A stretch of 64,000 bases of DNA, taken from the NCBI GenBank assembly GCA_922989275.2, contig OV277864.1, forward strand, positions 46,313,550 through 46,377,549, in the 5' to 3' direction. This DNA is from Gari tellinella (lineage: Eukaryota; Mollusca; Bivalvia; Cardiida; Psammobiidae). Shown here in pieces: positions 236 to 64,000 of the stretch (positions within the stretch are counted from its first letter, which is position 1; each line of letters opens with the position of its first letter). The notes under the pieces are model-generated. The model was not told the DNA's origin, ran no database searches, and saw nothing but the letters and a program-made list of their open reading frames with translations. A program made the translations under genes and the position numbers.

Positions 236-3200
236 GTGCGTATATTTTTATAAAATTACAGGCGAACCTCAATATTTCAAACTCAATAGATTCGAAATAA
301 CTTCGAAGTAGATCTATTGACTTCAACAGTATTTCTACTGTTGACTTCCATTATTTCAAATTAGCTTAAGTCGAGTCTAACCGCATTTAGCCACGTTTAT
401 ACTTTACAAGAAAGTTTGTTTCTACTTAAAAGAGTTTAAAATAACGACGTTCGAATATATATAAAGATAAAACATGTACGAGGCGTTGTTTCTTTTGAAA
501 ATGAATACATAGTATATACCATAATATACACCTACGCAATTCTAAAACACAACTAAGTTTGATAAATGCATATTTCCAGAAATGTTTTCAAAATGCACAT
601 GTAGAGTAAATCCTCTCTATCACGGCCCCTTAATGGAAGGGTGGTAATTGGTTGTATAAAGAACAGTTTAAAGCAATGTGACAGTAAAAAAGAAAGCTTT
701 TTGTTTTACTGTGACAGTCACATTGCTTAAAGCGGTCACCTTTCATAATCATCTAATAGTAAACACAAGCATGTGGTCGTATAGAGGTTTTACTATACAT
801 ATATCAAACACATTACGACAATATCAGTTCTCAGCAAAATGATATCCAACGTTTCAGCCATGATGAAGATTGGAGTGATTATGTCAATGATAAATACGAA
901 TTTACGGGGAAAGCCACTACAACATTGTATCAGCGTCTCATCAACGACCGTCATCATAGTCGGGTCAGGTATGTATTTAACTCATTCACTCAGGAACTTT
1001 TGATGAACGATTTCGATTTCCAATTAAATCTAGCCCTATTACGGATATTTAGGGTTGTTGTGTGCAAGACTATTGCAACAAACGAAACAATGGAGACCCT
1101 AATAGGAGCCCTCTGAGCAGGGTCTACCTTGTTAGGAAAGGTGTACCTTCCTAGGTACATTGAGTTTTAATGACGAGTATGCTCCTCGCTAGAGTTGAAT
1201 GCGATACTCAGTAGTTAAAATGTCGTTCTTTGTCAAGCCTTTTGAAACAGATTAATATTCCAAAACATGAAGTGCTTGAGGGAAAACTTTATTCTTGTCA
1301 AAATATTGTTTTATGTTTGACACCTTTTGTACAATTCAAATAGTTTTGAACCAGATTCAAAACTATTTGCCACTCCGATTTATAAAATTTGTCCAAATAT
1401 TGAACACTGTTATTTAACCCCGCAAACTTCAAATGGACAAGTCCAGTTTAAAATAACTATAGTCCATATCAAAATATTAGGGGTTGAATTCACAAAACAT
1501 ATTGCAAAATGACAAAATTAATAGTGAACACCCTGATCAGAGGGTTCCTACAGGAGCCCTCTGAAAAGGGTATACACTCTTTGCATATCACAATGTACTT
1601 TTCCATGGTCCACTGTTTGTTAATGGAGAGTATACTCGTCGCTCAGATTAACCGTGTGAATGCGAATTTTTCAGATAAAGACCTCACAGATGCAGTAGCT
1701 GCCATATTGCCAGAAATGTCAGACCTGACTGTTTATACAAATATCCCAGACACTAGTCACTTGTCATCACACTTCAGCGCAGATTTGCATAGGCGATCGG
1801 ACACTGAGTCCATGGAGAACATAAATCTGTCCATCAGAGCTGGTTCCATGCCGAAAGATCCAATTGCATACATATTCACATCCGGGACAACAGGTAATAT
1901 GACAATCTGTTTAGTTTTACACACTGTTTAAATACTGTTTTCTGAAAGTAGACAAAGTGCTTGTTAAAATCTATCATGGTCTTACCTGGTTGATGAAACC
2001 ATTTGGTAGTTGGTCTTTATGGATGAATATGTACTTTAGTACCCACTTTAGTGAACTTACAGAGAGGATGTCTTAGACTAACTTAACCTACATTGTACAT
2101 TGTTTTCCATTCCCAGGTCTGCCGAAAGCTGCCTATATCACCACTCACAAAACCGTGGCAGGTTTCATGCTGGGTGGAATATTTGGAATCCAGTCCAATG
2201 ATAGGATATTTGTTTGCCTTCCCTTGTATCATTCCAGCGGACTACTTGTAGCGGTGACCTCGACAATTGCATTTGGTAGGTTAAGATGTATAAGCACGTT
2301 CTATTTTCTTGATTATTTGATTAATTTAATATCCATACAGTTTGGTATCGAAACGGCGACTTTAGAGTTTTGGCAACACATACAGTAAGACTTGTTTGGA
2401 TGTTTGAAGTTACTTATGAATATCACAATAATAGTTGTTATCAGAATAGAAAGCACGTTCGTCTCTTTAAAACACAATCCCTAACACATTTCTTTAAACG
2501 ACCTAAACATACATGTAATAATGCTGGTGTTTTGTTTTCAAGAAATACATTCCGGAAATATTATGTGTTTGGAATTTCCCTTCAGTTTACAACAGTAGTT
2601 CTGTTTACCATATAGAATATTACACATCAAATACACAGTTATACAAATTGTTCGTTGCAATAGTCATGTTTTTCTGTATTAAGGTGCAACGTGTGTGTTG
2701 GAGAAAAAGTTTTCAAAATCTAATTTCTTAAACATCTGCCGGGAGCATGGAGTTACAGTCATGGTGTACATTGGAGAGCTTTGTCGTTACCTGCTTACAA
2801 CAGAAAAGGTATACTATCAGATGTAAGAGTTCATTGTACCACGTTTTATGATAGACTGGTACATTAATGAATAATTTACACTCAATATTGCCATGTAATA
2901 AACTTACTTGTTACATAAACCATATTAAATTAAACTGTACCAGTCTCAACTGAAAACAGTATCGGTTATTCCTTGGGCGAATAACGTTAAGCAAACATTA
3001 TGTATGTTAATTAATTTTACCGTCGCCTTTCATTTACAAATAGAAGATTCAACTGATGAATTCTAATATTCTATTTTATTCACATGACCCGTGTCACTGT
3101 AAAACCAGCCAAATAGCGACAGGTAAGATGCAATCAAGAAAGTGTTTTACTTTTACCCTTTTACTGCCATAATGTCGAAAACAACCGTCTAACAAAGTCA

Positions 3201-6200
3201 CTGCCATATTATCGTATGCTTATATATTTCGTCTGATTTTACTTTTTTGAAATTCTACACATTTTTGACAAACATTGAGGAGACAATGGTATTAGTGTCA
3301 AAGAGAGAGGATCCTGCCACACGCCGCGTTTCGAACTTCTGATGTTCGTATAAATTATTTCTATCAATACTTGCTTTCAGAGTGATATGGACACACAACA
3401 TTCCATTCGATTAGCTATTGGCAATGGTCTGAGACAGGACGTGTTTGCAGATTTCAAGGACAGGTTCAAGATTAGTAGAATTTGTGAGTTTTATGCTAGC
3501 ACAGAAGGCTCGGCTGGCATGGTCAACTTTGACGGAGTCGTGGGCGCATGTGGAAGAATATCCCCCTTCTTGGTAGGTACTGTAGATATAAAACGTTGTT
3601 CTGTCCCGTTTAAACGCAAACGAAACGCAAACGCATTGCAATAAAATGTAGAAATTACCACTTTTTGACAATTCTGAATGCTGATTTAAACCTGGATGGC
3701 AAACAGTTTGGAGCCTGATCAGACACCGGGTTACCCGGTATCTGATCCGACTCCAAACTGTTTGCATGGACAATAATAGATTTATCGTAAACGCGTTTAA
3801 TTAGGAAGGAATAACCTTTTCTTCTCTGTACATAACTGTTTTAAACGTTTCCTAAATCGTAAAGCCTTATACAGCTCGCCCTTATCCCAATAAAGATACA
3901 TGTGCATGGTTTTAGTTAGTATTTGTAAGGATATATAAGAGGGACATTCTAAAATCGTTACAGTTGGCTAAGTTCCAAATTAACCTAAAGTCTCATTCTT
4001 AAATTGAATACAGGTGACAATTCAAAGTAGGTTAGAAGAAAATGTAGAGTGCGCCTGAAAGGCATTCTACTTTAATTTCAGCCTGCTTTAAGGTATTATT
4101 AATCTGTTTGTATATAGACGATATTATTAAAGTGAATATTCATGACTATGAAGTGGAACTGTTTTAATAATTTGAATGCGTATTTATAGGAAAAAAGGGA
4201 AAAGGCGTTTTATGTTTTATTTCTTATCAGTTGTCAGCAATCTCGTATCTAAAACACGGAATAAAGCATGTTTCATACTTCAACACATTAATTATATCAC
4301 AAAAATTGAAATATTATACAAGTGTATATACCATTCTATATAATTGAACTAATAATGACAAGATACTCATAAAAAGTCACTGTGTACACCTCGACCATCT
4401 ATAGATGTTTGAGGCATACATTTGTGTATATCTATCGGGATTGCACTGTCTGTTCGTACAAGTGTGTCTGTACGTCGGTGCGCACGATGCTATTCAGAGT
4501 ATACCATTTCTTCTAACACCAACATCGCTTAACCGAATACTTTGACACCTATACAGTTAATGCTTCGAACCATTCCCAATTCAACAATAAAATTATATAG
4601 TTGTTTCGTTTGACCCAAACACAAATTGACCTTGACATTGATCTAAATTTTACTTAGAATAATTAAAAATTAGTTATTTCTGAGTCACCTAGATTTTACC
4701 GTTTTGTTAGCAAACATCAGTTAATAAAAAAGTGTTTTACCAATGTTTCATTTTATTTCAGGGCCTTTTCCTTAAAATGGGACTTTATAAGTGGAATGTA
4801 GAGGAGGAATGTTTGGTCAGAGATAACAAGGGGCATTGTGTTCCAGTTCCATTTGGTAAGTACAGTATTAATTTCGCTTGTCTTTGTTTAGCAAGGAATA
4901 TATGTAGACATTGTTTATTTCTTCTATTTTTGATGGTTTTAATCCTTTGACACATCTGTAGTCAGAGTCGAGTTTAGAAGACTTTGACTTAGTCTACATC
5001 CGCTCAAGAAACATATAATTATAAATCAGATAATAATCATCATTACATGAAAATTCGATTCATTTGAGAAATGTTTTAAACGAAACAATGAAAACGTTTT
5101 GGAAATGTGTAACTTACACTGATTACATAGATCTACTACATTCTAAACATGAGCTACTTTTACTTGCTTTTGTGTATGAGTAATTCTGGATCGGGAACGT
5201 GACATGCTTCTTTGAAATACGGCGTCACCGAGGGTTGTCGATTACCCAGCTTTTGCAACATGCTTCTTTGAGATTGTTTAATGAAATTCAAAGACCATAT
5301 GTATAGATACTCTCCAAACATGTCTGAAATAATATTCAAGTGTTAAAGTAATTTACGAAAATGGGTTTAGGCCAATTCTGGGGGGGGGGGGGAGGATTCA
5401 GGGTTTTAACAGTTTTATTCAATGTTAGAGGTTCTCTGTTTATATGAACAGTTTCAAATGCTACTTTCAAAAACATTTGAAAAGTTGCAATGCTTTCAGA
5501 ATTGTCACAATTAATCTCCGTTTTTACTTTTCATTCAATACCTCTATACATCAGTTTGAAACCATCAGCAGTATTCTCAAGCCCTTTGATATGTTTTACT
5601 TCATACTTTTGCATTTGCAGTAATTCAATGTTCGAAATCTAATTCCTAGTCATTTCAAAAGTATGCATTACACATTTGTAATGTACCAAAATATAGCATA
5701 ATTAGAAATTTGGACAAAGTCTAATGTATGAGGTTTGCTTTGGTTTTGCAGGAACTCCAGGACTTCTTCTAACAGCCATTAATCAAAAGCAAGAATACCA
5801 AGGCTACAAAGGGAGAAAAGATTTAACGGAGAGCAAAATCGTCAAGTATTGAATACTTAAGACATTGTTTCTCAATGTTATCCATACTTAATCTCATACC
5901 CGTTTGGTTGACCTTTACTTTGCCATTAACTCTTTGCTTAACTCATTCACCCCTGAAACTTTTAATGGACAATTCCAATTTCATTTTAAGTCTAGTCCAA
6001 TTTTTGCTATTTAGGTTTGATTTTAACATTATATTTTAAAATGACAAACAGTAAGGATCCCTCTGATCAGGGTATACACTGTTTGCATAGGACAAGTGTA
6101 GTCCTCAAGATGTATACTGCTTGTAAAGGACGAGTATACTCGTCGCTAGGGTTGAATGTGTCAAACATTGCAGTACGAGTTTATGGCTGTATTGGAAGAA

Positions 6201-9465: not shown

Positions 9466-9561
9466 AGCATCGCAAACATCAAACATATATAAGTATTTTA
9501 GAAAGAAATATGGACCAACAATGAATATCTCTAACTTGCAGCATTGTCTTTAATGCATGTA

Positions 9562-9807
9562 CAGTGGATAATCTGTTATTCTTTCCCAATAAACGCGTTT
9601 ACGCTAAAACTATTATTTGCAGTGCAAACAGTTTGGAGCCAGATCAGACGCCGGGTAACCCGGCGTCTGATCAGGCTCCAAACTGTTTGCAACCAAGATA
9701 AACAAGAATTATCAGAATTGTCCAAAAGTTGTTCTTTTCTACGTTTTAGTGCTTTGCGTTTGCGTACGTTTGCGTTTAAACGGGAAAGAATAACAGATTC
9801 TCCACTG
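9562..9807. mobile_element. TM1 MITE, full length (246 bp)
   Basis: TA dinucleotides flank the inverted ends CAGTGGATAATCTGTTATTC / GAATAACAGATTCTCCACTG. The interior has CCCAATAAACGCGTTTACGC on one side and GCGTTTAAACGGGAAAG on the other, with core C1 in the middle (GCAAACAGTTTGGAGCC, GATCAGACGCCGGGTAACCC, mirrored). The TA duplication and CAGTGG end fit a Tc1/mariner-type non-autonomous element. No transposase is present. Confidence 0.9.
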
Positions 9808-10164
9808 TACATTGTTCAACGAAAGAAGGATATGTCCAGAAGCACCGTACTTGGACAAATAAAAACTTTCATACTATTGTTTTATATTACATGTATAAGT
9901 TACATTAGTTTTCTACATTTGTAATATTCCCGTTAAACACTCAGCAATAGTTTTGGTCTTTGGCGCAATACATTTAGTGCAACGGCAGATGATCTATTGA
10001 ACATGTATCAGTTTAAAGGTTTGTATAAATAACGATATTTATTTGATGCAGTTTTACCATTTGAATCTTAAAAATATGGATTTGATTAGCCTTTTTTAAT
10101 CTTCTACATGTAGTAAAGACATTTTGAACCAGTCTACTATGATAACCAACACTAATGAAAATAT

Positions 10165-10236
10165 CAAACAGTGCAGAGCCTGATCAGACGGCTTCTATAG
10201 AGTAGCCTTCTGATCTGGTTCTACACTGTTTTCAAA
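10165..10236. repeat. C1-type palindrome, PB3-like variant
   Basis: CAAACAGTGCAGAGCCTGAT, CAGACGGCTTCTATAGAGTA and the arm CTGATCTGGTTCTACACTG. The surroundings do not resemble a complete PB3, so this is either a relic or an isolated core. Confidence 0.5.
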
Positions 10237-10351: not shown

Positions 10352-10603
10352 TTAACCCTTTCCCTTATAGAAGCGACTTTTAGCGCATTCATTTTATTCA
10401 TCCGCCAAAGAAAAAAGTTCCATTTTATACTGTCATGAATATGTACCATAAGCAATATTTTCTATATCCTAGCAGATAGTAACTTAAAGCAGGCTGAAAG
10501 TAAAGCAGAATGCGCCATAGGGCGCATTCTACTTTACTTTCAACCTGCTTTAATAGGTCACATATCTTAACTACTAGAAACAGGCTATTGGGTAATGGGT
10601 TAA
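10352..10603. mobile_element. PB1 MITE, full length (252 bp)
   Basis: TTAA at both ends with inverted TTAACCCTTTCCC / GGGTAATGGGTTAA. Interior GAAGCGACTTTTAGCG and TCATCCGCC. Core C2: CTTAAAGCAGGCTGAAAG, AGCAGAATGCGCC and the mirrored arm. CCC next to a TTAA duplication is the piggyBac-type signature. Confidence 0.9.
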
Positions 10604-20861: not shown

Positions 20862-20966
20862 TTTAACCCTGTGCCTACTTTACGGAGTTTACAAACTATT
20901 TGAATCTAAAAAGACGCCGCGTAACGTGGCGTCTCATCTGGATCCAAACTATTTGACACTCGTCTT
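20862..20966. repeat. PB2 MITE relic
   Basis: TTAACCCTGTGCC, TACAAACTATTTGAATC, AAGACGCCGCGTAACG and GATCCAAACTATTTGACACT. It abuts the PB3 element that starts at 20965. Confidence 0.55.
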
Positions 20967-21215
20967 AACTCTTTCCTCCCTGAAACTTTAAATGGAAAAT
21001 TCCAGTTTCCATTTTAGTCTAGTCCATTTCTGACTTTTAAGGGTTGTTTTTGTCAATGTTTGGCATTGTGACAAACAGTGAAGAACCTGATCAGAGGGCT
21101 CCTATCGGAGCCCTCTGATCAGGGTATTCACTGTTTGCATAGGACAAGTGTACTATTCACATGTACACTGTTTGAAAAGCATGCCTATATGCGGGACTAG
21201 GGTTCAAAGAGTTAA
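20965..21215. mobile_element. PB3 MITE, full length (251 bp)
   Basis: TTAACTCTTTCCTCCCTGAA / CTAGGGTTCAAAGAGTTAA with TTAA at both ends. Core: AAACAGTGAAGAACCTGATC, AGAGGGCTCCTATCGGAGCC, mirrored. Next to it is a second hairpin CATGTACACTG and CATGCCTATATGCGGG. Confidence 0.88.
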
Positions 21216-21837: not shown

Positions 21838-22095
21838 TTAACTCGTTACCATTTTTCAGTTTATTTAGTTTCTATACCTGCGTTTTGTTGCCTGTTATGA
21901 GGGACATATCTGCTTCATTTTTGTTGTTTGCAAGATCGTTCCAAAGTAAGATTCATTGTAGTATGACTTAAAACATATCGATACGAGTGTCAAACAGTTT
22001 GGATCCTGATCAGACGCCGCGTTACGCGGCGTCTAATCAGGATCCAAACTGTTTGCAAACGCGCTTTTAGGCGTCATTGAAGATGAAAGGGTTAA
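21838..22095. mobile_element. PB2 MITE
   Basis: TTAACTCGTTACC / GATGAAAGGGTTAA. Core C1 of PB2 type, almost perfect: GTCAAACAGTTTGGATCC, GATCAGACGCCGCGTTACGC, mirrored. Confidence 0.8.
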
Positions 22096-22302
22096 TCCAT
22101 TTGTGACCATGAGTTCATACATGGGGCATAGGCAAACAGTGTAGACAAACTCTGATCAGACGCTAAATAATACAGCGTCTGATCAGTCTTCACTGTTTGC
22201 TGATAGAAATTTCAATAAAAACAAACTGAAAATGAAATTTTAACTGGGCAACTCTTCGATCAAAAATGGATTATATAAGCTTGGAATAATCCACTTGGCG
22301 CA
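22096..22302. mobile_element. Family E palindromic MITE
   Basis: CCATTTGTGACCATGAG, CATGGGGCATAGGCAAACAG, TGTAGACAAACTCTGATCAG, GACGCTAAATAATACAGCGT, mirrored, then AAAATGAAATTTTAACTGGG and GAATAATCCACTTGGCG. The same family occurs at 44882, 45340, 40650 and 62395. Confidence 0.65.
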
Positions 22303-26999: not shown

Positions 27000-27420
27000 A
27001 ATTGCAAATAGTGTAGACCCAGACCCCAAACTGTCTGTCACCCAGATTAAAATAAATCGTGAGAAATGTTAAAACATTGTCCTTTTCTGTATTTAAATGC
27101 ATTGCGTTTGCGATTCCGTTTGCATTTAACCCATTACCCCATAGCCTGATTCTAGTTTTGAAAATAGGTGACCACTTAAAGCAGGTTGAAAGTAAAGCAG
27201 AATGTGCCTGAAGGCACATTCTGCTTTTCTTTCAGCCTGCTTTAAGATACCATCTGCTAGAAATTTAGAAAATATTTCTTCTAATACATATTTGTGACTG
27301 TATAGATTGGAACTATTTTCTTCAGCGGATGAATAAAATGAATGTGCTAAAAGTCGCTTCTATAAGGGAAAGGGTTAAACGGTCGGGCTATTAGACATTG
27401 TTTGCCGTCTTTGTATTGCA
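27000..27420. repeat. TM1 right half with chimeric core, split by PB1
   Basis: The core is reduced and mixed: a left arm of PB3/E type (GCAAATAGTGTAGACCC) joined to a right TM1-type arm (CCCCAAACTGTCTGTCACC). The TM1 right interior (TGCATTGCGTTTGCGATTCC) runs to CATTTAA, where PB1 is inserted. TM1-like ACGG follows the PB1. Confidence 0.6.
27126..27378. mobile_element. PB1 MITE nested in TM1
   Basis: TTAACCCATTACCCCATAG / GGAAAGGGTTAA with exact TTAA on both sides. Core C2 GCAGGTTGAAAGTAAAGC, AATGTGCCTGAAGGCACATT. It sits in TM1's GCGTTTAAACGG site. Confidence 0.88.
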
Positions 27421-34516: not shown

Positions 34517-34599
34517 TACATGTTCGCATTTTAACGCGTCTACTTATTCTAACACTGTAACAAGTAGTCCTTAGCTGGGACGGTCTGGCATTATTCATT

Positions 34600-38800: not shown

Positions 38801-41800
38801 CTTGTCAATAAAACACAGTAGATCTACCATGCGCTTAGATGTTTGCATCGTAGCATCATCTATAGGTCCTATCAAGACTGATCAAAGTTAGCCCATTGTG
38901 TCAAAATTGGCACCGCCCTTGGGTTCACCGTTTTAAATACAGTTATATAGTGAACTCTTTAAACATCTTCTTCTCTGAAACTCGCGTGCTGTTGGCGAAT
39001 TCATGATAAGTGTTTCAAATAACTTGCCGTTTCAACTGTATGTTAAATCTTTCACACTCTTGTGATATTTCTTGAAATAAACTTTTTTTTAATCGCATTT
39101 TAGATAAAGTGCAGATGACAATTTATTTTACACACGACAGTTACATGCACATAGCGTGCAGAACGTTAATCCATGATCAATTGTGGAAGCGAAATGTTTG
39201 TTCCGTATTTTAAGACTTCCCTATTTCAACAGTTCGGTTTTCATTGGCTATACTGGTGCTCATATTAGTAGAACTAGTCGAGTAAATGAGATATTATATC
39301 TGCATAATTATACGTAGTGATATTATATCTACATATATTGTAGTGAGTGTGTTTGATGTGTTATTACATCATAATAGCAGTGAAAGGGTTAAATTCACAT
39401 TCCAAACATTGTAGACCAAGGCCCACCGCCGCGTCTTTGACGAGGCGACCGATCTTGGTCTACACTGTTTCTTATTCAAAACCATGTCCAGTGTGTTGTT
39501 ACAGTGAAGAAAACGTTATTCTTTCCCCAATAAACGCTAAAACCATTATTTCCAATGCTAACAGTCTGGAGCCAGATCAGACGCCGGGTAACCCGGCGTC
39601 TGATCAGGCTCCAAACTGTTTGCCGCTCAGATTAAAATGAAGAGTCAAACAGTTGTATTTTTCTACATTTTAATGGATCGCGTTTTCGTTTCGTTCGCGT
39701 TTACATGGGATGGAAGAACATCTTCTTCACTGTGTCTAAGGTGTTTGCAATTGTAGGCATTGAGCAGACGTCGAGACTTAGATGTCTAGATTAAGTCAAC
39801 ATTGTTTTGCAATGCAAGTAATGCCAACAATTGTGGTTTTCTTTTTGCACGGTTATATTAATTTAGTTACTGGAAAAGAAAAATAGATGTATTCGGTAAA
39901 ATTGTAAACAGCTAATAAATTTACCGGTGAAAGGTTTTACCAAAACGGCATCTGCTTTAAATGATTGTGGTCTGGGTTTTTTTCTTAAATTTGAAAATTA
40001 GGTAAAGTGCCAAAGGTTGTATCACTTTAAGTGTCAAACAGTTTGGATTGTGATCAGACAACGCGTTACGGGTGCCCTGATCAGTAGATTGTTTGCAAAT
40101 AACCACTGTACTCTAGAGTAAGGCATCGAAGATGCTTAACTATAGACCTACATCTACAAACATTGATGTCTTGCTTATTAAAGTAGTTTCATGGTTAATG
40201 TATCATTTGCATGACTCAAAATCGTTAACAAATTCAATATAGCTTATAATTTTGAACCATTACTACAACATATTTACGGTTTATGTGAATGCTATCTAAT
40301 ACAGTTTGGAAATAAAACAAATGTTTACTTTTATTTTTTATTATTTTTATCAATATCATACTGATTGGAGCTTGATCAGACACGACGTTCCTCGACGACT
40401 GTCCCAGAGACCTTCATACCACGTCGTGGTTCTGAGGTTTAGTTGTCATGGGGAATGTTTTTAGGCTTGATTGTCGTAGGGAATTGTTTCTGTTTATTAG
40501 ACCGAGATTATCCCCTCTGTCTGTCAATAAATAAAAGGAAGGCAGGTCGGTGGTTTTACATGTAATCACATGCGCTGTTTCGCAACGAATGAGACTAGTC
40601 GAAAGCATATTCCTTAAATTATCATCATTACCCCACCATCATCCATCGGTGCGGCGTCTGATCAGAGTCTACACTGTTTGCTGAAAGGAATTTAAAAATA
40701 AAACAAAATGAAAATGAAAATTTAGACCAGGCATCCCTTTGATAAAAAATGGACTAATCCAATATATAAACATGGAAGAATCCACTGGGCATACATTGGT
40801 TAATGGAACAAACAGTTTTTCACCATTGCACAAGTCTACTTTTGGAGTAAGTTATAATGGGGTTGAAACTGCTGCATTATTCTGCCATACAAACATCTCA
40901 ATCTTTAGACGTAAGGATTAGTATTGACAGACGCATGGCGGAATCTTAGAATAATGTTTACAGTGCTAATGTTTTCAAACTATCCACAGCTTCATTGTAA
41001 TATTAAAGTTGAGCATATTATAACGTTTACACTGTTATAATGGAGAAGACTTTATTTTTCCCGTTTAAACACAAACGAAACGCAAACGCAGTGCACTTTA
41101 ATGTAGAAGTTGACAACATTTTACAATTGCTATCCATCTATTTAAATCCGAGCGGCAAACAGTTTGGAGCCTGATCAGACGCCGGGTTACCCGGCGTCTT
41201 ATCTTGCTCCAAGCTGTTTGCAGTGGAAATACATGTAATAGTTTAACCCTTTCCCTTATAGAAGCGACTTTTAGCGCATTCATTTTATTCATCCGCCAAA
41301 GAAAATAGTTCCATTTTATACTGTCATGAATATGTACTATAAGAAATATTTTCTATATACTAGCAGATATTAACTTAAAGTAGGCTAAAAGTAAAGCAGA
41401 ATGTGCCCTAGGGCACATTCTGCTTTACTTTCAGCCTGCTTTAATAGGTCACATATCTTAAATACTAGAAACAGGCTATGGGTTAAAGGGTTAAGCGTGA
41501 ATGCGGTTTTTTGGGAAAGAATAACATCTTCTCCCCCGAATACACTACACTAATATCGTCTTCTCGCAAACAAATTGTCTGCCTTTATTTCAAAGATGAA
41601 GTAAGATGTACAGTGGAGAATCTGTTATTCTTTCCCGTTTAAACGCAAACGTACGCAAACGCTAAAACGTAGAATAGAACAACTTTTAGACAATTCTGAT
41701 AATTCATGTTTATCTTGGTGGCAAACAGTTTGGAGCCTGATCAGACGCCGGGTTACCCGGCGTCTGATCTGGCTCCAAACTGTTTGCACTGAAATTAATA

Positions 41801-44800
41801 GGATTAGCGTAAACGCGTTTATTGGGAAAGAATAACACATTCTCCACTGTAGTTTGGATTTTTATGATTGCATTTATATGATTATCAAACAATTTGGACT
41901 CTGGTCAGGGAAAGAAACAGTAAACTGTAAATGATACAGTTTAAAACGGTAGCTGTTATTCTGGACATATATATTTTAAAACTATTGTACTGAAATTTCA
42001 TTAAACCTCATTGTACTTTCATTGTTGTGGTTGGTGGTTGACCATAAAACAACCGCCTAAAATGAATTTCTGAGGACAGTTGGTTTCTTGACATCATTTT
42101 TATGATAAATGCACAATGGATTTTTTTGCTCCTGGGTGAGCTTTTTCTTTAATAATATACGTCATAAAGCTGTAATTGTAGCAAATGTTCTTTTCTGGAG
42201 AGGACTTACATTGGCAATGCCTGTTGTCCAATCCATTTCATTATGTGAATAAAATATTGTTTAAACCAACCCTTTCGGCGCCGTATGCGACAAAAGTCGA
42301 CTTTGAGAACAGTTTGGATCCAAAAGAAACGCCGCACATCGCTCAATCTGCCTAAAATAAACCTTTGAAATGGATGTTCAGACACGCAGACACTACTTTG
42401 ACTGTGAAATGGCAAATGGCAAGGCAGTCTGTAACAGTAGGCGTAAAAGGGTTAAAGACATCCATTGGCTCGTAACCTGACTGGTCGCTAAACATACATT
42501 TCACTGGTTTAAACTCATTCACCCCTGAAACTTTTAATGGAAAATTCCAATATCAAAATATGTCTAGTCCATTTTTGACTATATAGGGTTGATTTAACAA
42601 TACATGTATTTTTCAAAATGACAAACAGTGTAGACCCTGATCAGAGGGCTCATTAAGGCGCCCTCTGATCAGGGTCTACACTGTTTGCATGGGACAAGTG
42701 TTATCCTTCAATGAACACTGTTTGTAAATGACGAGTATACTCGTCGCTAGGGTTGAATGCTTTAACCATTTCGCTGTCATTATGAGCGAACAACCCGTCT
42801 AACACAGTCACGTCCATGGTAACGTCTGCTTCAATTGTTCGATTGCATTAATTGATATAAAACGTTTTTTGTAGTTAGGAAACATTAATATATTGTTTTT
42901 GTCAAACAGTTTGGATCCTGATCAGACGACGCGGTACGCGCCGTCTGATCCAAACAGAATCCATACTGTTTCCCCAAACAAATGCATACGGTATTGGCAG
43001 TGAACGAGTTATAGTACTGGGTCCGTTTTACGAAACGTCGTACCCCAAATATTGTCGTAATTCTCAATTATTGATTCCATTTCTCCATCTAATCCTGTCT
43101 TATGGCATCTCTTTGGAATTGTTTTTAAAATACGATTTCAAAGAGATGACACAAAACAGGATTAGATGGAGAAATACAAAAAAGGTGTATTTTAAAGTTT
43201 GGACTTACGACCGTTTTTGTCGTAAGACGGGCCCCTGGCTTCTAAACTATAAGGGAGAAAGACCTGTCTGTATGAATAAATATGGGTATTTTTTTCTAAT
43301 TTGGAGCTCTCCTGATAAATCTGGTAACTAGAATCTTTAATAGAAATCTTTGATTTCAGTTTCAAACGATGAAACCTCGAATGCTATTACATTGTAAAGA
43401 CATGTAGTATGGAATTCTCACAAAGTGGAGAAGTCCTTTTTTTCCCAATAAACGCGTTTAGGCGAAGTTCTTTATTTCCATTGCAAAGTGTTTGGAGTCA
43501 GATCAGACGCAAGGTAACCCAGCGTCTGGTCAGGCTGCAAGTGTTTTCTGTTCATATAAGAATAAATGGTGTACATTTTTAGAATACTGTCAGTTTGCCC
43601 ATTTTATTGCAGTATGTTTTCGTTAAGGTTTGTTTAAACGGTGAGGAATACCGTAACCCTTATTCAGCTATAACCGTGTTTGCTCCAAAATTGTGTTCTG
43701 CAGGAACGTTCACATTCAGTTTAATGTCTCTTTAGCAAAGAATATCTTAATTGATCGTCAATCAGTTTGGACATTGATCAATATATGTATTCTAGATTCA
43801 AGCCGTTAGAACATTGATCAAGCGCCGAATTACTTGTCTACATTCAAACAGTTTGCAAATACATGTACCAGTCAACGTCACACGGACATTGCCTACATTG
43901 TGGCTTCAGTAACACCTCTCTGTTACGACAACTATTGTGTAAATTATTAGGTATTTTCGACAGGTGACTGCTTGAAGCAAGGTGACAGTAAATTAAAAAG
44001 ATCATTTAGGAGCTTTCTGTTTTACAGTTGCATTTGCTTAAAGCTGTCACCTGTATTTTATACAACCAACGGTTTTGACGGTCGTAAAAGACAGATTTTA
44101 CTGCATTTAGATCTGTCGATTTTCAGACCAAACATTTCATGCTTGGTGGAACGACATAGTCTATTTTCTATTCGCTTTAGTAATCAGATGTCTGTTATGT
44201 AAATTCCATGTATCCTAGGCAGTAAAGGCTTGTCAGTACAGTACCGTAGAGAAGACATTAATGTAGAACATTTCAACGTTTTGACATATCTCACGATTTA
44301 TTTTAATCTGAGTGGCAAACAGTTTGCAGCCTGATCAGACGCCGCCGGGAAAGCCCATGTCTGATCTGGCTTCACACTGTTTGCATTGGAAATTGTAGTT
44401 TTAGCGTGAACGCGTTTATTGGGAAAAAATAACGTCTTCTCCACTGTACATGTAACTCAAACAAATACTGTTGAATGCTCTTTAAATAATTACACGTAAC
44501 AGGTTAAAGCATAATAAAAGTAAAGCAGAAAGCTCTTAAAGAAGTATTTTGCTTTTATTTCATTTTGCTTTAAGCATCCACTTGCCTTGCATATCGCCAA
44601 CAAGCTTTCTTTTGTTTTGTCGAATTTGTGCGACATAACAATAGTATGTACAATCATAAAGGACAAATCGCAAATCGTTACACAGAAACGCAGTACAGAA
44701 TCAATGCAAGGCTAAGTGAAGAATTACCCTCTTTGTTTCATAAAGCATGGTTTTTATTACGGTAAAACCTTTCTATCACGACCGCTAAAAGGAATGCTTA

Positions 44801-47800
44801 TTGATTGTATAAAAGACAGGTGACAGCTAAAAGCAAGGTGACATTAAAACAGAAAGCTTCTGTTAAGTGTCACCTTCCTTTATCCCATTTGTGCCCCCGA
44901 TCTCATATATGGGACATAGGCAAACAGTGTAGACTATGATCAGATGCCGCTTTATGCTGCGTCTGATCAGAGTCTACACTGTTTGCTGACAGGAATTCCA
45001 ATATAAAACAAAATGAAAATGAAAATTTTGACCAGGCAACCCTTTGATAAAAAATGGACAAATCCAGTTATATAAACATGGAAGAATCCACATGTCGTTA
45101 ACAAGTTATAAATAACACAATTAAGTGGTCGTAATAGAGAGGCTTTACTGTAGAATATTATGAAGCGTTAACCATCAGCAATAAACTGATTACTATTCTG
45201 CATAGTATCTCACTAAAGGCTTTGACAACTAGTATACAGAACAATTTTGCAAATCAAACATTTTCTGATCGTGTTCAAGGTTTGATTTAGACAGGTCTAC
45301 ATACATGTACATATATTTTTGTGTGACCCATTTCCGCCCAGTGGATTCTTCCATATATTGGATTAGTTATATTTTTATATAAGGGATGCCCGGTCTAAAT
45401 TTTCATTTTATTTTATATTGACAATCCTACATGTATCAGCAAACAGTGAAGACTCCAGATGATCAGACGCCGCAAAATGCGGCGTCTGAACAGGGTCTAC
45501 ACTGTTTGCCCATGTCCCTTAATGGGACGCTAGGATCAGGGTCCAAACTGCATAAGTGTCACTAGACATACATGTAGTACTCGGGGTAAGGCAGTGAAGG
45601 TGTTTCATGTAAGCAAATTCGCTGAATCAATGGACTACAAGTATAACAAATGCACCAGTATAGAGAATTTTGTGCGAATTTAAAGAGACAATCTGATTTA
45701 TGAAATTCAGATTTCATAGAATAAAACGTATTTAGAAATCTCGATATTTAAGCATACAACTTAGTGCATGGAATTGCTTCGTTTATCAATTAAGAGTTAG
45801 CAAACGGTGTTTACTAATAAAAGACCCTGGAAGTTATTAAGCTTATGTGTTGTATAAGATATTCCCTTACGGTTATTATGTATCTCGCCAATGATGAACG
45901 AATCTATGACAATCTTAATGAAGAAACGAGTTGACTGAACCTGAAAATTGTCAAGGCCTTTCTACAAGAGCACAGTAGATGTCCATTATTTTTACCTGTT
46001 CAAATAAGCCTTTATCGGTGTATGGTTCAATCAGGTTGTTGCTTAACTCATTGAGCCCTAGTGACGCATATATGCGTCGTTTACCAAATGTGTACCTGTG
46101 AAGAGTACTCTTGTCCTATGCAAACAGTGAAGTCCCTGATCAGAGGGCTCCAGTAGGAGCCCTCTGATCAGGGACTTCACTGTTTGTCATTTTTCAATTT
46201 ATTACAAAAAACAACCCTAAATAGTCTAAAATGGACCATCCTTTATTGCAAATTGGAATTTTCCATTGGAAGTTTCAGGGGATAATGAGTTAAAACAAGA
46301 TGAAAGTGAAGCAGAAAGCTCCTTCGGGAGCTTTCTGCTTCACTTTCATCTTGCTTTAAGATATCATATACATGTATCTTATTGTATAAACTCGTAATAT
46401 CGAAGCTTTCGTAATAGCGGGGCTCTACGCTACGTCAATACATGCTTTGGTAACCAAATAGGAACAATGATTGATCGGCCTGTAAAACAATACAATCATG
46501 ATTGAAAGCTCTATCAGCAAGAGTATCTTAATCCATGAGATACAATAATGTCCAGCTGTAACGACCACTCATACATCTTATATTACTACCACTCATACAT
46601 GACTCATTGGTCGTTCAAAGACAGGCAACAATAACATTTGAGAAGATGGTATTATTTCCCAAAATATGCGTTTATACTAAATTACTTATGTCAACTGCAA
46701 ACAGCAAACAGTTTAGAGCCAAATCAGACGCCGGATAACCCGGCGTCTAATAAGGCTCCAAACTGTTGGTTATTCTTATTAAAGCTAGTCTCTTACATTT
46801 TCAGACAGCAGTTTTCCTTACTATTGCATAGAGTTTATGTGTAGTTTCTTTTAAACAAGAAAGAATAACATCTTCTCCTCTGCACGTGTGATCATTGAAA
46901 GAAGACTCATTGAGATACAGTTTAATCCAGTTGCGCACGGGAACCTGCTGTTTTACATCGTATTTGCTATTTAGCACATTCAAAATAATTCCACGTGTCG
47001 GTTTATAGCACCAGATGCAGATTAATACTGGACCGAAGTAATGCATAAACCTACGCTCGTATATGTATATAGACGTTTTTAACCTAACTATTATTCTTTG
47101 AAGCATCCATCGTTCTACATGTACCCACTATAGTCTGCAAATTTTACATAGTGTACAGGGGCGTAGCTTGGCCGAAATGAAAGTGTAGGCATATCTGTTT
47201 TAGGGGGGTCCGGGGGCATGCTCCCCCGGGAAAATTTTGAGTTCTACAACACTGTAGACGCATTTAAGGAGGGTCTGGGGAGACATTTATATGAAGAATT
47301 AATGAAATGAAAAGCTTCAAACAACAGACAATTTTATTTTTTGCAAAGGAATATGTCTGCATATTTTCTTGAAAAACAAAAATCACCAAAAAACAACTCC
47401 ACGTCAATTAGTATATCATAGGGTCTGATACCGTAACTTTTTCAATAACATACTCGCTACTTGAAATTATTTGGATGTAACGGTTAACTTTCTTTTCGGG
47501 ACAAATTGATCGAGCACACTAAAGGCCCGTATGAAATCCAAAGTAACTATACCAATTTATGAACTCACTCTTACTAGGAAGGGATTGGGGAGGGTTGATT
47601 CCTAGATAGCCTCTGGCTTGTTCTGAGGGCGTTTTTGCGTAAAATTCTTTCAAAACTTTTTCAATAACATACTCGCTACTTGAAATTATTTGGATGTAAC
47701 GGTTAACTCTCTTTTCGGGACAAATTGATCGAGCACACTAAAGGCCCGTATGAAATCCAAAGTAACTATACCAATTTATGAACTCACTCTTACTAGGAGG

Positions 47801-53800: not shown

Positions 53801-56800
53801 TTGTCCAATAGCATTTTGTCTTCGCCAATTAATATTAACCGCTTATTTGTTAACTTCATTGGTATTTGCAAATAGACTCAGTCGGGAAGAAACTCGGCGT
53901 CTGATTGCGATTCAAACTGTTTGACATTCAAATCAATGATTTTTCTGTCCTAGACGTCAATTTATAAAAAGAACACAGACAATGCTATAAAACTGAATAG
54001 TTTAATGTAAAAAGGCCAATGTCAGCATACACAGGTACAAGACTGGTCGTGCAAAGAACGAACTTTTCTAAATAGCGTCTATCAAAGATTCATGCTTCTT
54101 GGTACTTATTTAAATGTTACTTTATCTGAACTATTTCCTCGCTAAAACTTCAAATGAAAACTACCACTGTCCGTGGTAATCCGCTACATGATTCACTATG
54201 TAATGTTTTATTTGCCAATATATTGACAAACAGTGCAGGTGTAATGACGAAATGCCCCCACCTCTCTCTAACAAGTGTCCCCGGAGGACGTTATTCGGGG
54301 TAGAAAAGTGTCCTTGGGTCTTGATTTGTCAACGAAATATGTCCTCAATGCGTAGCAAATGACCCGGGAGGACGCTTTTCTACGTCCGATGGGGGGGGGG
54401 GGGGGGGGGGGGGGGGGCTTTTCGTCATTACAGAGGCCCTGATCAGAAAGCTCCTTTCGGAACCCTCTGATCTAGGTCTAGTATGTTTACATAGGCAACA
54501 TGTACAGTAAAACGATCACTAAAATGAAGGCTAATTGTTTGTATGAAAGACAGGTGACAGAGAAAGCTCCTAGGAGCTTTCTGTTTAACTGTCACTTTGC
54601 TTTCAGCAGTCACCTGTTCATATCACCTAAACACTATTGAAACAGTTTATGGTCGTAAGAGAGATGTTTTACTTTATTCTTCACAGGTACACTACACTAA
54701 CTGAAAGGGACGTGTATATGAGTAACTAGGTTTCAAAGAGTTAAACTATATATCAGATGTTTATTTGAAGACGAACGTAAAAACGTTTATATTAATGATA
54801 CTGTGGAGAAAACGTTATTCTTTCCCAATAAACGCGTTTACGCTTAAACTATTATTTCCAGTACAAACAGGTTAGTGCCACTCAGCTTAAAATAAATAGT
54901 CAGAATTGTCAAAAAGTTGTTATTTTCTACATTTTAGTGTATTGCGTTTGCGTTTCGTTTGCGTTTAAACGGGAAAGAATAACGTTTACTCCACTGTACC
55001 TGTACCATGTACACAATTCAAGAATAAATTTACGAAGAACAGTGGAGAAAACGTTATTCTTGACTATAACAGTTTTGGCATAAAACGTTTATTTGGAATG
55101 ACTAAAGTCTTAGTTTTCCGATAGTTCAGGATATTGATTGTTCAGTGCACGTTTGACATTATCAAATTTCATAAATCAATTACAAAGCATTTGTCACTGC
55201 ATGTAATAATTTGCAACCTACATGTTTGTCGTCGGCGATATTTTTTTTCTTGTGAAATAAACTGCAATGTTTCTAAAAAATATGGTAAGAATGTCAAATA
55301 GTTTGAACCCTGATGAAACGCAAAGATATTTGGGAGTCTCGTCAGGATCGAAACTGTTTGCAGCAGATACAGTGGAGAAGACGTAATTCTTTCCCAGCAA
55401 ACGCGTTTATTATTTCAATTGCAAACAGTTTGGTGCCAGATCAGACGCCGGGTAACCCGGCGTCTGATCAGGCACCTAACTGTGTGACATTCAGATTAAG
55501 ATTAGCATTCAGAATTGTCAAAAGGTTGCCAGTATCTGCATTGTATTGCAAGGCGTTTGCGTTTCGTTTACGTTTCTTTTGCGTTTAAACGGGACCAAAT
55601 ATCGTCTCCTCCACTGTATCACAACTTTGTCCACGAAGTACAGAAGGTTTTAAAACATGTAGACCGTTTGTATACGGTTAATTTATATTTATTACAGAGG
55701 AGAAGACATTATTTCCCGTTTAACGCAAAAAAACGATAACGCATTGAATTGAAATAATAGAAAATAAGAACTTTTTGAAATGTTAATGATAAATTTTAAT
55801 CATAGTGGCAAACCGTCTCAAGACCTGATTACACGTCAGGTTATATGGCGTCTGATATGGCTCCAAACTGTTTGCAATGGAAATAATAGTTTAGCGTAAA
55901 CGCATTTATTGGGAAAGAATAACGTCTTCTCCACTGTTCGTTCGCTCAAACAGGCCCATTGACTTTATAATAATCAGATGAAAGCTTCAAGCATGATGAA
56001 AGCAAACCAGAGATCTCTTTATTCTCATCCTGTGCTAGTAAGACGTCTTGTTTAGGTCGCAGTAGTATATGTCATAATCGCCGACAGCTGTGTGCAGTGG
56101 TAATGACTCAAAACTTGTTCACCTGCAAACAAAATGTTCCGTGGATGTTTAAATCTCAAGGTTCTGACTGTTTCAATACCATATGAATGCAAATATAGGA
56201 AACACCTTCTATTACGACCTCTAAATTTGGTAAAATACTAGATGTATAAGACAGATGACTCCTTAAAGCAAGGTCACAGTAAATCAGAAAGCTCCTGAAG
56301 GAGCTTTCCGTTTTACTGTTACCTTGCTTTAAGCTGTCATCTCTCTTTTATACAATCCATTAGCCTTCATTTTAGTGGTCGTAATGGAGGGGAGTTAATG
56401 TATTTATTTGTTAATTTTCCGTATAGTACCGCAATTACGATCACGCAAAGGAAGACAATATTGATAGGGTTACAGACAAGAGTTTCCTGATTTTACCGCA
56501 ATCTTGCTTTGTTTGCCATAAACACCGACCGCTTTAATATATTCTTTCTGTGTTGAATTTCAGGAGAAGACGTTCCCATTTAAACCAGCCATTAATTCGA
56601 GCGAAATGAAGTAGAACAGAAATTAAGAAGTTATTACAAAGTTAAGACAATAGTTCAGTATTAGTGACAAACAGTTTGGAGCCGGTTAACCGGCTTCTTA
56701 TCTGGCTCCAAACTGTTTACAGTTAGCATACGCAGTTAAGCATAAACGACGTTGCGATGCATTTTGAAATGTCCCATATACATTATGGGTTAAATCAAAA

Positions 56801-59800: not shown

Positions 59801-62800
59801 TTGGTTGATCGATATACAGTTGCACATGTATCAGCTTTCAAGCAATATCAAGGTGCATTTTATTCAAAATATTTCGTGAAATGGAGAAGTCCTTTTTCCA
59901 AGTTTAACATTGTCCTTCCTGAAACTTCAAATGGACAAGTTCGGTTTCCAAATTAGTCTCGTACAATTTTACTATTTAGGATTTATATTGGTTAATGTAT
60001 TCCAATATGACAGACATTGCAAACCCTGATCAGAGAGCTCCTTTATGTTCACTCTGATCTAGATCTTCAGTTAGCATAGGAAACGTGTATTTTTATATGT
60101 CCACAGTTTCATAGGCCTGTATGCTAGACTAGAGTTCAAAGGTAATTACTACTAAATGCAAGCGCAATGGAATAAAATGAAAACAGTTTTTGGAAAACGT
60201 TGACACTATAGAGATCGAAGTGGCAAACCGACGAAGCCTTGTCTTAGTGTGGTGGAAGAGTGTAGCGTAAACTTTCTATTAGAGCATTATACATTGTGCT
60301 TCAGTAAAATGTTATGCCATATCTTTCTAGTATCCAGCCTCATATGACAGTGTTTTGAAATGTTTAATAACTATATATTTGATCTTGATTACTCTGCGTC
60401 TGTGCATGCTCAACATTATTTGCAATGGTAATGTTTTGTTAATTATAAACGGGAATCTCTGTATTTCTCATTTCATTTAAGAGTGAACCACTTGTATTAA
60501 AACTAGAATCCATTAAATCATAATTTAGCCAACGCACTTTGCAACTAATTTACATACTTTAAACCCGTCGAACATAAAGTTTTACCTCGAATACTTTGAT
60601 TAGAACGAACTTTAGGCGCTACAAATTTGATTGCTGTAAATAATAGAAATCGATATAATTTCACGTTGTTAACCCCTTTAATGCCATGACGTCGTCACTT
60701 TTACACAAGTATCGTCTTTTTTATTACCCATATTGAAATTTTACGTATTTTAACTTAAGAGATATTAAAACGAATGTAAAACAGTTTGGATCCTGATTAG
60801 ACGCCGCGATACGCGGCGTCTAATTAGGATCAAAACGGTTTGCAAATAATACTAGCACTCGGGTTAAGGCAGTGAAGGGGGTAAAGATTATTGGTTTTCC
60901 AATTGTTGTATAACTCACATACAGTAAACACTGTCTTAACCCTTTCCCCCATAGAAGCGACTTTTAGCGTACATGTATTTAGTTAATTCCTCCGCTGAAG
61001 AAATTAGTTCCAGTTTATACCCTCATGAACAATTATCATTACAAATATTTTATATAGTTTAGCAGATTTTAGCTTAAAGCAGGCTGAAAGTAAAGCAGAA
61101 TGTGCCTTAAGGCACATTCTGCTTTACTTTCAACCTTCTTTAAGTGGTCTCCTGTTTTTAAAACTAGAAACAGGCTATGAGGTAATGGGTTAAACATGGC
61201 AAACGAGCATATGTTCGAATACGGGGAAGAAGACGTTACTCTTTCCCGTTTCAACGCAAACGGAACTCAACAAAATGCAGGAAGTGTCATTTTATAGAAG
61301 TTTCTAAAGACTCATTTCAATCTGAGTGGCAACTAGTTAGAAACCTTGTCAAATGCTGGGTTACCCGGCGTCTAATCAGGTTCTAAACTGCTTTTTGTAA
61401 TTGAAATAATTGTTTTAGCGTAAACGCATTAATTGGGAAACATTACTGTCTGATCACTGTTATTGAGAATAGAACTTAACTCTACTGGTTCTCCAATTAC
61501 ACTTGTTTTATGAGACACAAATTATCCCTCTGCACGATGAATTTGTCGCTACTGTCAACAGTTTGCCAACATGTTAGATCCAGATGCGATGCCGAGCCTC
61601 TCAACGTATCATTTTGATCAAGACTGTTTGATATTCTGGTGATATTTGTCTAGAAAAACTGAAGAAATAACATTTTATAGCAATGATGCAGGCGTCAAAG
61701 TTGCGAAAACCCAGCTACACAGCATGCCAAAGGTCAAACCTAAACAAAGATGAAATCTCTCTTGGAAAGTTAGACTTTTATGTCAACAGTGTTCAGTGTG
61801 ATATTTGATTATTTGCTATAGGAAAGAAACTAGATTCAAATTACTAGTAAACAACGTTTTCTCATCTCTGTTTCAATTAAGCCCAGTTTTATGAGAACTT
61901 TTCCATAAAACATTCTGAAAGTAAAGAACCATATCATACATGTATATATATATATATTGGGAGCACCAGCTTAAAGCAGACTGAAAGGAAAGCAGAATGT
62001 GCCTTAAATCGAGCTCAGCTTTACCTTCAATCTGCTTGAAATTGTCACGTGTCTTCCAACTAGAAACATGATATTGAGTAATGAGTAAACTTGAATGAAC
62101 AATGTACTTCACCCTGTATAAATATGTTACTTATCCTAACCCAGGTTACATGGGTCAGTCCACGAAGTGAGATGATCACTTACGGATCAAACATCGTCAT
62201 TAACGACCGACGTTTTAGTATCGTCATGCCAACGAGGGAGGAGTGGAACCTGCGTATCTCCAGGGTACGGGGCCGGGATGCCGGGCAGTACCTGTGTCAG
62301 CTTAAAACAGACCCTATACAAGAGAAAAGTGTATTCTTAAATGTTCACGGTAAGAATGTGTAGATACAGTCTAATATTTTGTCCTGAATTATTCCATTTG
62401 CGCCCAGTGGATTTTTCCATGCTTATAATATTGGATTAAGCCATTTTTTATATAAGGGATGCCTGGTCTACTTTTTCTTTTTCGTTTTGTTTTATATTGA
62501 AAATCCTATCAGCAAACAGTGTAAACTCTTGAAAAGACGATTCCAAAGAGATGTCATAAGTCAGGGTTAGATGGAGAAATAAATGAGAATTTTAGAAGCT
62601 GACTTACGACAATAGTTGTCGTACGACTTTTCGTAAGTCGAGTCCCAGGGGTCCGTCTAACGAAACGTCGTACGATACAAACGGTCGTAAGTCAAAACTT
62701 TAAAATATATCTAATATATTTCTTATTTCTCCATCTAATCCTGTATTGTAACATATCTTTGGAAGCGTCATTTCAAGATGATTCCAAAGACATGTCACAA

Positions 62801-63880: not shown

Positions 63881-63883
63881 CTA

Positions 63884-64000
63884 CAGTGGAGAATCTGTTA
63901 TTCTTTCCCAATAAACGCGTTTACGCTTAAACTATTATTTGCCGTGCAAACAGTTTGGAGCCAGATCAGACGCCGGGTAACCCGGCGTCTGATCAGGCTC
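63884..64000. mobile_element. TM1 MITE cut by the window end
   Basis: TA-CAGTGGAGAATCTGTTATTC, CCCAATAAACGCGTTTACGC, GCAAACAGTTTGGAGCCAGA, TCAGACGCCGGGTAACCC. It lies two bases from the preceding TM1 end. Confidence 0.85.

Follow-up and report, generated by a model that had tools for sequence, protein, structure and literature searches.

Miniature inverted-repeat transposable elements (MITEs) are usually viewed as pairs of ends that borrow a transposase, with filler lying between them. Yang et al. reportedly found in 2009, in assays with the rice Stowaway element Ost35, that internal MITE sequence alters the transposition rate. For mPing and mPong it has also been described that internal sequence affects transposition, no specific promoting internal sequence being common to both; in contrast to the elements considered here, the accessible text of that article mentions neither a palindrome nor sharing across superfamilies (PMC9921582). 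The present analysis concerns a stretch of 64,000 nucleotides from the bivalve Gari tellinella (assembly GCA_922989275.2, contig OV277864.1, positions 46,313,550 to 46,377,549 of the forward strand), called the window below, in which MITEs of several families carry one of two palindromic cores, named C1 and C2. Each of the two cores is found both in elements flanked by TA (families TM1 and TM2) and in elements flanked by TTAA (families PB1, PB2, PB3 and, tentatively, PB4).

The coral CMITEs (Wang et al. 2010, PMC2872659) are six small piggyBac-type MITE families with TTAA and with differing terminal inverted repeats (TIRs), which have a 75-bp internal region in common; between families this region is better conserved than the TIRs, and Wang et al. 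suggest that it has a function in transposition. The likeness to the window consists of the shared internal region between differing TIRs, and by eye CMITE TIRs such as CCCTTTCCCGTCCA and CCCTTTCACTGCCA are similar to PB1 and PB3. CMITEs differ in that all of them are TTAA elements of one superfamily, and the accessible part of the article describes no palindrome and no test of constraint along lineages; CMITEs and C1/C2 were compared by description, not by letters. Because TM1 and TM2 are flanked by TA, the window families are not members of the CMITE group proper. In the haemoglobin genes of Lucina pectinata, repeat 1, which is 210 bp long, has a 77-bp palindrome (96%) lying between inverted ends of 30 bp, repeat 2 contains a 68-bp self-complementary part and has a short segment in common with repeat 1, and similar fragments are reported in other molluscs (PMC4732748). 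No target duplication was found there and no superfamily was assigned; judged by their description rather than their letters, these repeats may belong to the families presented here. Bivalve MITEs of the Pearl/DTC84 type are modular, and DTC84 has a conserved palindrome near a repeat junction, according to the part of the source that is accessible (PMC5139131). They differ by their satellite-like tandem repeats, none of which was seen in the window elements by a tandem-repeat scan; the scan did record an 11-bp unit present three times in one TM1 copy (55554-55586). What is new beyond the CMITEs and the Lucina repeats is the crossing between TA and TTAA elements, the covarying palindrome and the constraint at the level of lineages. 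In the literature searched (mostly titles and openings of abstracts, with supplements and figures outside the search) no palindrome common to TA and TTAA MITEs was found, no match to the literal letters of C1, and no cis-acting transposition enhancer common to mariner-type and piggyBac-type elements.

Cores were detected with profile hidden Markov models (HMMs) for C1 and C2 at a cut-off of E<1e-3. In the window, which has 35.9% GC, 114 matches (84 C1 and 30 C2) were obtained, making up 11.1% of its length, and three first-order Markov controls gave 0, 0 and 0. A palindrome scan returned 56 palindromes with a score of at least 14, of which 35 overlap C1, 13 overlap C2 and 8 overlap neither. 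Matches to four family HMMs at E<1e-8 span 30.7% of the window, core-only matches counted in. C1 is 65-67 bp long and is laid out as CAAACAGT..GATCAGA..tip..TCTGATC..ACTGTTTG; the letters of the outer box CAAACAGT and of the inner box GATCAGA are conserved; letters vary in the stretches between the boxes and in the tip, where most of the pairing is nevertheless preserved. C2 consists of CTTAAAGCAGG.TGAAAGTAAAGCAGAATGCGCC plus its mirror; the PB1 palindrome has a length of 72 bp, that of TM2 a length of about 106 bp. When six cores were folded as DNA, their energies lay between -27.8 and -39.9 kcal/mol, with z between -10 and -16.

The ends of the elements were determined by a search for TIRs and target-site duplications (TSDs) plus alignment. 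Family members were collected with flank models in which the core was not scored, overlaps and matches with E>=1e-3 being removed, and the consensi of PB4 and TM2 were made by eye. The flanks defined 22 TM1, 14 PB1, 9 PB2 and 5 PB3 elements, and 47 of these 50 contain a recognisable core. TM1 is TA-flanked and about 250 bp long, with ends TACAGTGGAGAA.. and a TIR score of up to 22 over 24 bp; TM2 is TA-flanked with ends TACAGTAAAACCTCTC.. (by eye). The TTAA-flanked families are PB1 (about 252 bp, ends TTAACCCTTTCCC..), PB2 (about 251 bp, ends TTAACTCATTCACC..) and PB3 (213-217 bp, ends TTAACCCCTTYACTGCC..). Hosts of C1 are TM1, PB2, PB3 and PB4, the last tentatively, and hosts of C2 are PB1 and TM2. 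Cores had been described as lying at the centre of their elements; by measurement they are off-centre, in a position specific to each family, the distances from the core centre to the left and right end being 97/152 in TM1, 167/84 in PB1, 140/110 in PB2 and about 141/73 in PB3.

A TTAA is no more than a few bases away from each of the two ends in 10 of 14 PB1, 5 of 9 PB2 and 2 of 5 PB3 copies and in none of the 22 TM1 copies. TA stands exactly at both ends of 10 of the 22 TM1 copies, with varied outer bases, and of no PB copy; in the remaining flank-defined copies the motif is missing from one predicted end or from both. TM1, PB1, PB2 and PB3 show what is expected of MITEs: a length below about 600 bp, TIRs, a target duplication and many copies. 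The marks of piggyBac-type MITEs, a TTAA duplication and CC[C/T]T termini as quoted in the accessible part of PMC2872659, are both present in PB1, whose ends read CCCTTT, and the termini of PB2 (CTCATT), PB3 (CCCCTT) and PB4 (CCCATT) fit that formula only partially. TM1 and TM2 possess the TA and the CAGT-type termini of Tc1/mariner-type elements (TM2 ends TACAGTAAAACC, by eye). From these ends the TM families appear Tc1/mariner-like and the PB families piggyBac-like; Kolobok elements also use TTAA, and in ten long open reading frames (ORFs) of the window no Pfam family was found at E 0.001. Three copies of PB4 are present (at 22.1, 44.9 and 45.4 kb). The right end is TTAA in the 22.1-kb copy and in a bacterial contig end discussed further below, and the copies at 44.9 and 45.4 kb have ATAA there; as the left end is less certain, PB4 is tentatively taken as a TTAA-flanked family. 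The family at these three places is probably the one first called TM3, which had been annotated as TA-flanked.

Similarity between cores was judged against palindromes made from one shuffled arm plus its mirror, 1000 per pair. All six pairs of C1 cores from TM1, PB2, PB3 and PB4 exceed these random palindromes (0/1000, z 5.9 to 34), and for C2 of PB1 and TM2 none of the 1000 scored as high (z 27). Flanks were compared in both orientations with 500 shuffles, and in 14 of 15 family pairs no similarity was seen (z -1.3 to 1.8). The sole exception is the pair PB2-PB4, whose flanks have an 18-bp near-palindrome in common, in opposite orientation (z 5.2). The consensus cores of TM1 and PB3 differ at 7 of 65 sites, and their flanks reach z 0.2. 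Between families the internal region is therefore conserved above both TIRs and flanks, as in CMITE-like groups. The proposal that one core is common to families with unrelated ends and different target duplications is thus borne out in two cases, C1 in TM1 and PB2/PB3/PB4 and C2 in PB1 and TM2, and the result named beforehand as speaking against it, cores no more alike than random palindromes, was obtained for neither C1 nor C2.

The right flank of PB1 matches the outer arm of TM2 at 15 of 18 positions (z 6.4, 3/5000 shuffles); no match to that arm was found in the left flank (z -0.2). PB1 probably once had a longer version of the common C2 palindrome. It was also considered whether C2 is a TTAA mini-element, as its edges read TTAA in PB1 and TM2; this is countered by the right-flank match, and since the homology of PB1 and TM2 goes past the TTAA, the latter is probably no insertion edge. 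In eight pairs no similarity of C1 to C2 was found except for the tips of PB2 and TM2 (3/1000 random palindromes as high, z 4.3), which have CAGA..GCTCCT (46121-46186 and 56250-56344), and the two cores may belong to a single, deep palindrome family.

Leave-one-out comparison was applied to 56 cores, 47 of them in flank-defined elements and the others, 3 of PB4 and 6 of TM2, picked by hand; the nearest core belonged to the same host family in 55. The sole exception is the core at 46290-46360, in a TM2-like element, which stands between the TM2 and PB1 types. Exchange of cores is therefore rare and old, and the initial impression of a module still being exchanged between elements is not upheld. 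Among the 114 cores 49 lie between paired family flanks, 35 more have a family match that extends at least 30 bp beyond the core, and neither holds for the last 30. Several of the latter are, by eye, cores of PB4 or TM2, for which there is no family HMM, and most of the others are weak. After single inspection of 22 host-less cores, the well-preserved ones left were 20892-20955, by eye an interrupted PB3, and the core called E (10165-10230). E had been listed beside the families; it does contain a C1 core, but it is a single copy and its ends are weak (TIR score 21; the 95% bound for random pairs is 25).

The three flank-defined elements without a core have no core-less form in common: two retain core stubs and the third (27755) has a different, longer middle. 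The first two, TM1 54800-54998 and PB1 13719, were examined as candidate empty sites and rejected; most of the core is gone, and the remaining stubs show that they are deletions. No clean empty site was found among the 50 flank-defined elements of the window, and no clear solo core with a target duplication among its 114 cores. A palindrome that moves independently, one of the two possibilities raised at the outset, is accordingly unsupported. Repeated acquisition, raised with it, can be kept in a reduced form: at least one cross-superfamily event is needed for each core and no more than that is required, since PB2, PB3 and PB4 could share one TTAA ancestor.

Within families, changes in the core were set against those in the non-TIR flank and in the terminal 24 bp on either side (TIR). 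They were mapped by parsimony on maximum-likelihood trees and divided into those on internal and those on terminal branches, in a flank-only set (19 TM1, 13 PB1, 9 PB2 and 5 PB3; copies with >45% gaps or an unusable alignment were dropped) and in a larger set collected with whole-element HMMs (24 TM1, 15 PB1, 10 PB2 and 14 PB3). Private changes per base are about equal in the core and the non-TIR flank (.041/.040 in TM1,.043/.047 in PB1,.077/.071 in PB2 and.072/.063 in PB3). The mean pairwise difference in core, flank and TIRs is 0.15, 0.32 and 0.28 in TM1, 0.16, 0.29 and 0.25 in PB1, 0.22, 0.32 and 0.26 in PB2, and 0.24, 0.46 and 0.43 in PB3. In the flank-only set the internal/terminal changes number 33/208 in the core, 222/587 in the flank and 56/172 in the TIRs, which gives a pooled odds ratio (OR) of 0.42 for core versus flank (p 7e-6) and of 0.49 for core versus TIR (p 0.003). 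The corresponding counts in the larger set are 55/337, 383/884 and 88/259 (pooled OR 0.38, p 4e-11, and 0.48, p 1e-4), and there TM1 has 0.19 internal changes per site in the core versus 0.96 in the flank. We read this pattern of changes as constraint on the transposing lineages and neutral decay of the resident copies. The idea that the core is favoured during propagation agrees with these pooled counts, internal-branch changes being rarer in cores than in flanks or TIRs.

The arms of the core also covary between families. In 35 of the 84 C1 cores, chosen for good preservation, both sides change in 19 of 32 pairs and 90.3% of the cells pair; the covariation score is 0.267 versus 0.112 in shuffles, which ignore relatedness (0/500), and at most 0.079 with slid partners, which keep it. 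Within families 27 distinct compensated events were counted versus 10.9 expected (0/2000), most strongly in PB3.

Several observations weigh against constraint on the core. All data come from one 64-kb window, and the copies from which the flank models derive had initially been picked out by similarity over the whole element; misaligned flanks could inflate the internal changes of the flank. Family by family, core versus flank in the flank-only set has p.0013 in TM1,.047 in PB1,.089 in PB2 and.15 in PB3; in the larger set PB2 has p.10, and the PB1 result depends on the tree (p.012, or.51 with OR.81 on a tree of the flanks alone). Core versus TIR is significant in TM1 alone in the flank-only set (.0015; PB1.64, PB2.088, PB3 1) and in PB3 alone in the larger set (TM1.19, PB1.7, PB2.11), and with one family per set this contrast is to be taken as pooled evidence. 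Six young TM1 copies have somewhat fewer private changes per base in the core (3 in 402 bases) than in the flanks (16 in 1091), p.43. Distinct compensated events are not significant in PB1 (158/2000), and a compensating pair on the same branch accompanies 4 of 55 core changes on internal branches and 34 of 331 on terminal ones; from the 4 of 55 it follows that pairing is not strictly kept inside families.

It can be proposed, with a probability that we put at about one half, that the core is an old cis-acting palindrome module which elements of two transposon superfamilies have captured and have retained for the help it gives to their propagation. Capture would have happened rarely, as families were founded; in the simplest course, a MITE with the core would have inserted into another transposon, after which an internal deletion left new ends round the old palindrome. 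Retention would follow if copies with an intact core propagate better, the core acting in cis and not through a specific transposase, and after insertion a copy would be unconstrained and decay. The palindrome might extrude as a cruciform or serve as a hinge that brings together the ends of an element of 200-250 bp, or it might be a paired site for a host protein, with CAAACAGT and GATCAGA as candidate boxes. The persistence length of DNA is about 150 bp; as the ends differ, the distances to the core differ and the element length is not much above this value, a hinge or cruciform or a host-protein site would fit both superfamilies. A more far-reaching version, to which a clearly lower probability is given, would be that of a transposase-independent, structure-based module, made up of C1, C2 and possibly more distant relatives, which on rare occasions moves from one DNA-transposon superfamily to another, is selected only in transposing copies and has helped its carriers to fill up to about 31% of the window.

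Common descent is the alternative closest to the suggestion, made in advance, that all families go back to one ancestor whose ends merely diverged. PB2, PB3 and PB4 would then be one old TTAA lineage with flanks diverged past recognition and a slower core, and a single ancient switch would link them to TM1. The left flanks are indeed alike in length (107 bp in PB2, 108 bp in PB3 and 115 bp in PB4, whose end is uncertain), PB2 and PB4 have the 18-bp stretch in common, though in opposite orientation, and at the TM1 rates of internal change given above a core divergence of 11% could mean saturated flanks. Such an origin is possible among the three TTAA families; it leaves unexplained why TA and TTAA ends with unrelated TIRs stand round the same core, and do so twice, in C1 and in C2, and the few core differences between TM1 and PB3 beside flanks without similarity also speak against it. 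As a whole it is considered unlikely. Palindromes that are mobile in themselves occur in organelles and bacteria, and insertion of a nuclear counterpart into several MITE families would agree with C1 homology ending at the palindrome edge CAAACAG..CTGTTTG (by eye) and with the copy at 10165 that has no recognised host. A hint of fused mariner-type ends points the same way: the TM2 terminal decamer ACAGTAAAAC recurs in the TM2 core (0/1000 shuffles; 36 comparisons made), the TM1 end has a match of 9 letters in 10 within the cores of PB2 (.007) and PB4 (.004), and another of the 36 comparisons stands at.025, so the palindromes may, on this resemblance, descend from such ends. Yet the core edges show no duplication (by eye), C2 homology of PB1 and TM2 extends beyond the right TTAA edge, a clean empty site is missing among the flank-defined elements and core type tracks the host, which makes this a very doubtful explanation.

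Two further readings accept the symmetry of the core and account for it otherwise. Palindromes are known substrates for correction by template switching or conversion, and if template switching or gene conversion during transposition corrected arms and copies, conservation and symmetry could be mimicked without any function, in line with the excess of compensated changes over chance. Resident copies are not corrected, however, their private changes being about equal in cores and flanks; conversion between families would mix core types, which stay with their family in 55 of 56 cases; and the boxes CAAACAGT and GATCAGA are conserved in letters, beyond what pairing asks for. A low probability is therefore assigned to it. 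The selected product could also be an RNA hairpin, a small-RNA precursor or a substrate of RNA surveillance, made by intronic transcription, as near-perfect hairpins of 65-106 nt and their covariation would allow. An excess of G-T over A-C was looked for as a sign of RNA function and was not found: one-sided departures comprise 40 G-T versus 49 A-C, with no bias to an RNA strand, although they mostly reflect decay of resident copies. No Rfam match at the gathering threshold was found in the window, where a tRNA scan was also empty, and an RNA product is held to be quite improbable. Of these explanations the captured cis-acting module is given the highest probability. The elements and cores are collected in Table 1.

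Table 1. Elements and palindromic cores located in the window
Feature	Position	Strand	Basis
TM1 element, young full copy	31806..32055	+	TIR 22 over 24 bp, TA both ends, TACAGTGGAGAA ends, alignment
C1 core (TM1 type) of 31806..32055	31870..31936	+	palindrome scan; core HMM 82 bits
TM1 element, young full copy	36283..36532	+	alignment, TIR/TSD search
C1 core (TM1 type)	36347..36413	+	core HMM; DNA fold -39.9 kcal/mol, z -14
TM1 element, C1 core 9624-9690	9560..9809	+	alignment, TIR/TSD, core HMM
TM1 element, C1 core 34018-34083	33899..34148	-	alignment, TIR/TSD, core HMM
TM1 element, C1 core 34388-34454	34269..34518	-	alignment, TIR/TSD, core HMM
TM1 element, C1 core 41721-41787	41609..41851	-	alignment, TIR/TSD, core HMM
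TM1 copy, core deleted, CAAACAG stub and filler	54800..54998	+	flanks E 3e-20 and 2.5e-33, gap 18; alignment
PB2 element (TTAA), C1 core 21072-21137, tip GAGGGCTCC	20965..21215	+	alignment, TIR/TSD, core HMM
PB2 element (TTAA), perfect C1 core 46121-46186	46043..46293	-	palindrome scan, TIR/TSD, core HMM, folding
PB2 element, C1 core 32419-32484	32341..32591	-	alignment, core HMM
PB3 element (TTAACCCCTTCACTGCC..), C1 core 28978-29040	28867..29083	+	TIR/TSD, core HMM
PB3 element (TTAA), C1 core 35470-35535	35363..35575	+	TIR/TSD, core HMM
PB3 element, C1 core 21991-22055	21889..22095	+	flank models, core HMM
C1 core (PB4 type), PB4 nested in TM2	44920..44986	-	alignment, core HMM
C1 core (PB4 type), second PB4 copy	45439..45509	+	alignment, core HMM
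C1 core (PB4 type), third PB4 copy	22132..22200	-	alignment, core HMM
E: C1 core, no host assignable; TA ends (10135-10297) weak	10165..10230	+	core HMM, end inspection
PB1 element (TTAACCCTTTCCC..), C2 core 10483-10553	10352..10603	+	alignment, TIR/TSD, core HMM
PB1 element, C2 core 27175-27246	27126..27378	-	alignment, TIR/TSD, core HMM
PB1 element, C2 core 61073-61144	60936..61193	+	TIR/TSD, core HMM, folding
TM2 element (TA), C2 core 44816-44882, nested PB4	44758..45152	+	TIR score 16 over 24; core HMM
C2 palindrome of TM2; about 106 bp with outer arms 56245-56350	56250..56344	+	palindrome scan, core HMM, folding
C2 palindrome of TM2 element	43959..44054	+	alignment, core HMM
C2 palindrome, TM2/PB1 intermediate; host by eye TM2 interrupted by PB2	46290..46360	-	alignment, nearest-core comparison

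Nested insertions are visible by eye at two places, where PB4 sits at a TTAA of the TM2 palindrome (44758-45152) and PB2 beside the TTAA of a C2 edge (46043-46360), and the TTAAs of the cores may act as target sites for TTAA elements. Other palindromic repeats are present as well. The segments 8148-8859 and 58048-58821 are 71% alike over 790 bp and represent a repeat with a palindrome of about 90 bp near one end (TTGAACGAGTTGGATAAAA..), and an additional palindrome family (TCTCCATCTAATCCTGT..) at 43079-43175 and 62527-62829 is possibly a third core type. At 47435-47867 two tandem units of 219 bp have 98% matches, and the duplication is thus probably young. Between 1600 and 9200 exon-like ORF pieces (three ORFs, with TSGTTG and FNTGDL) look by eye like a long-chain acyl-CoA synthetase/FATP-like gene broken up by MITEs; when ORFs of this region were scanned singly with Pfam, none had a match at E 0.001.

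Relatives of the cores were also sought in contig collections. Four patterns had 0 matches in a viral contig collection, and one pattern had 2 matches in a genome contig collection. The first (L001, positions 1-89) is the end of the contig MUIB01000095.1 of a spirochaete metagenome-assembled genome and resembles the right half of a PB4-like MITE; for its flank, two of the PB4 copies give z 6.0 and 3.8, the third gives 0.3, and ten comparisons with other families give -1.0 to 1.6. It looks like a chimera, due either to host DNA or to the assembly, within a publicly available bacterial genome. For the initial suggestion of an old bivalve-wide system, the comparison covered this contig end and the description of the Lucina repeats. 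The second (L002) lies inside bacterial DNA, looks like a chance match and was rejected as a relative of the core.

A homologous and constrained palindrome in elements of two enzyme families means that the filler of a MITE can be its selected part. It suggests how new MITE families may originate, namely by new ends being put round an old core, and the core offers a direct test of the open question why some MITEs reach huge numbers. If the more far-reaching version is true, the palindrome would be a cis-acting transposition enhancer common to mariner-type and piggyBac-type elements.

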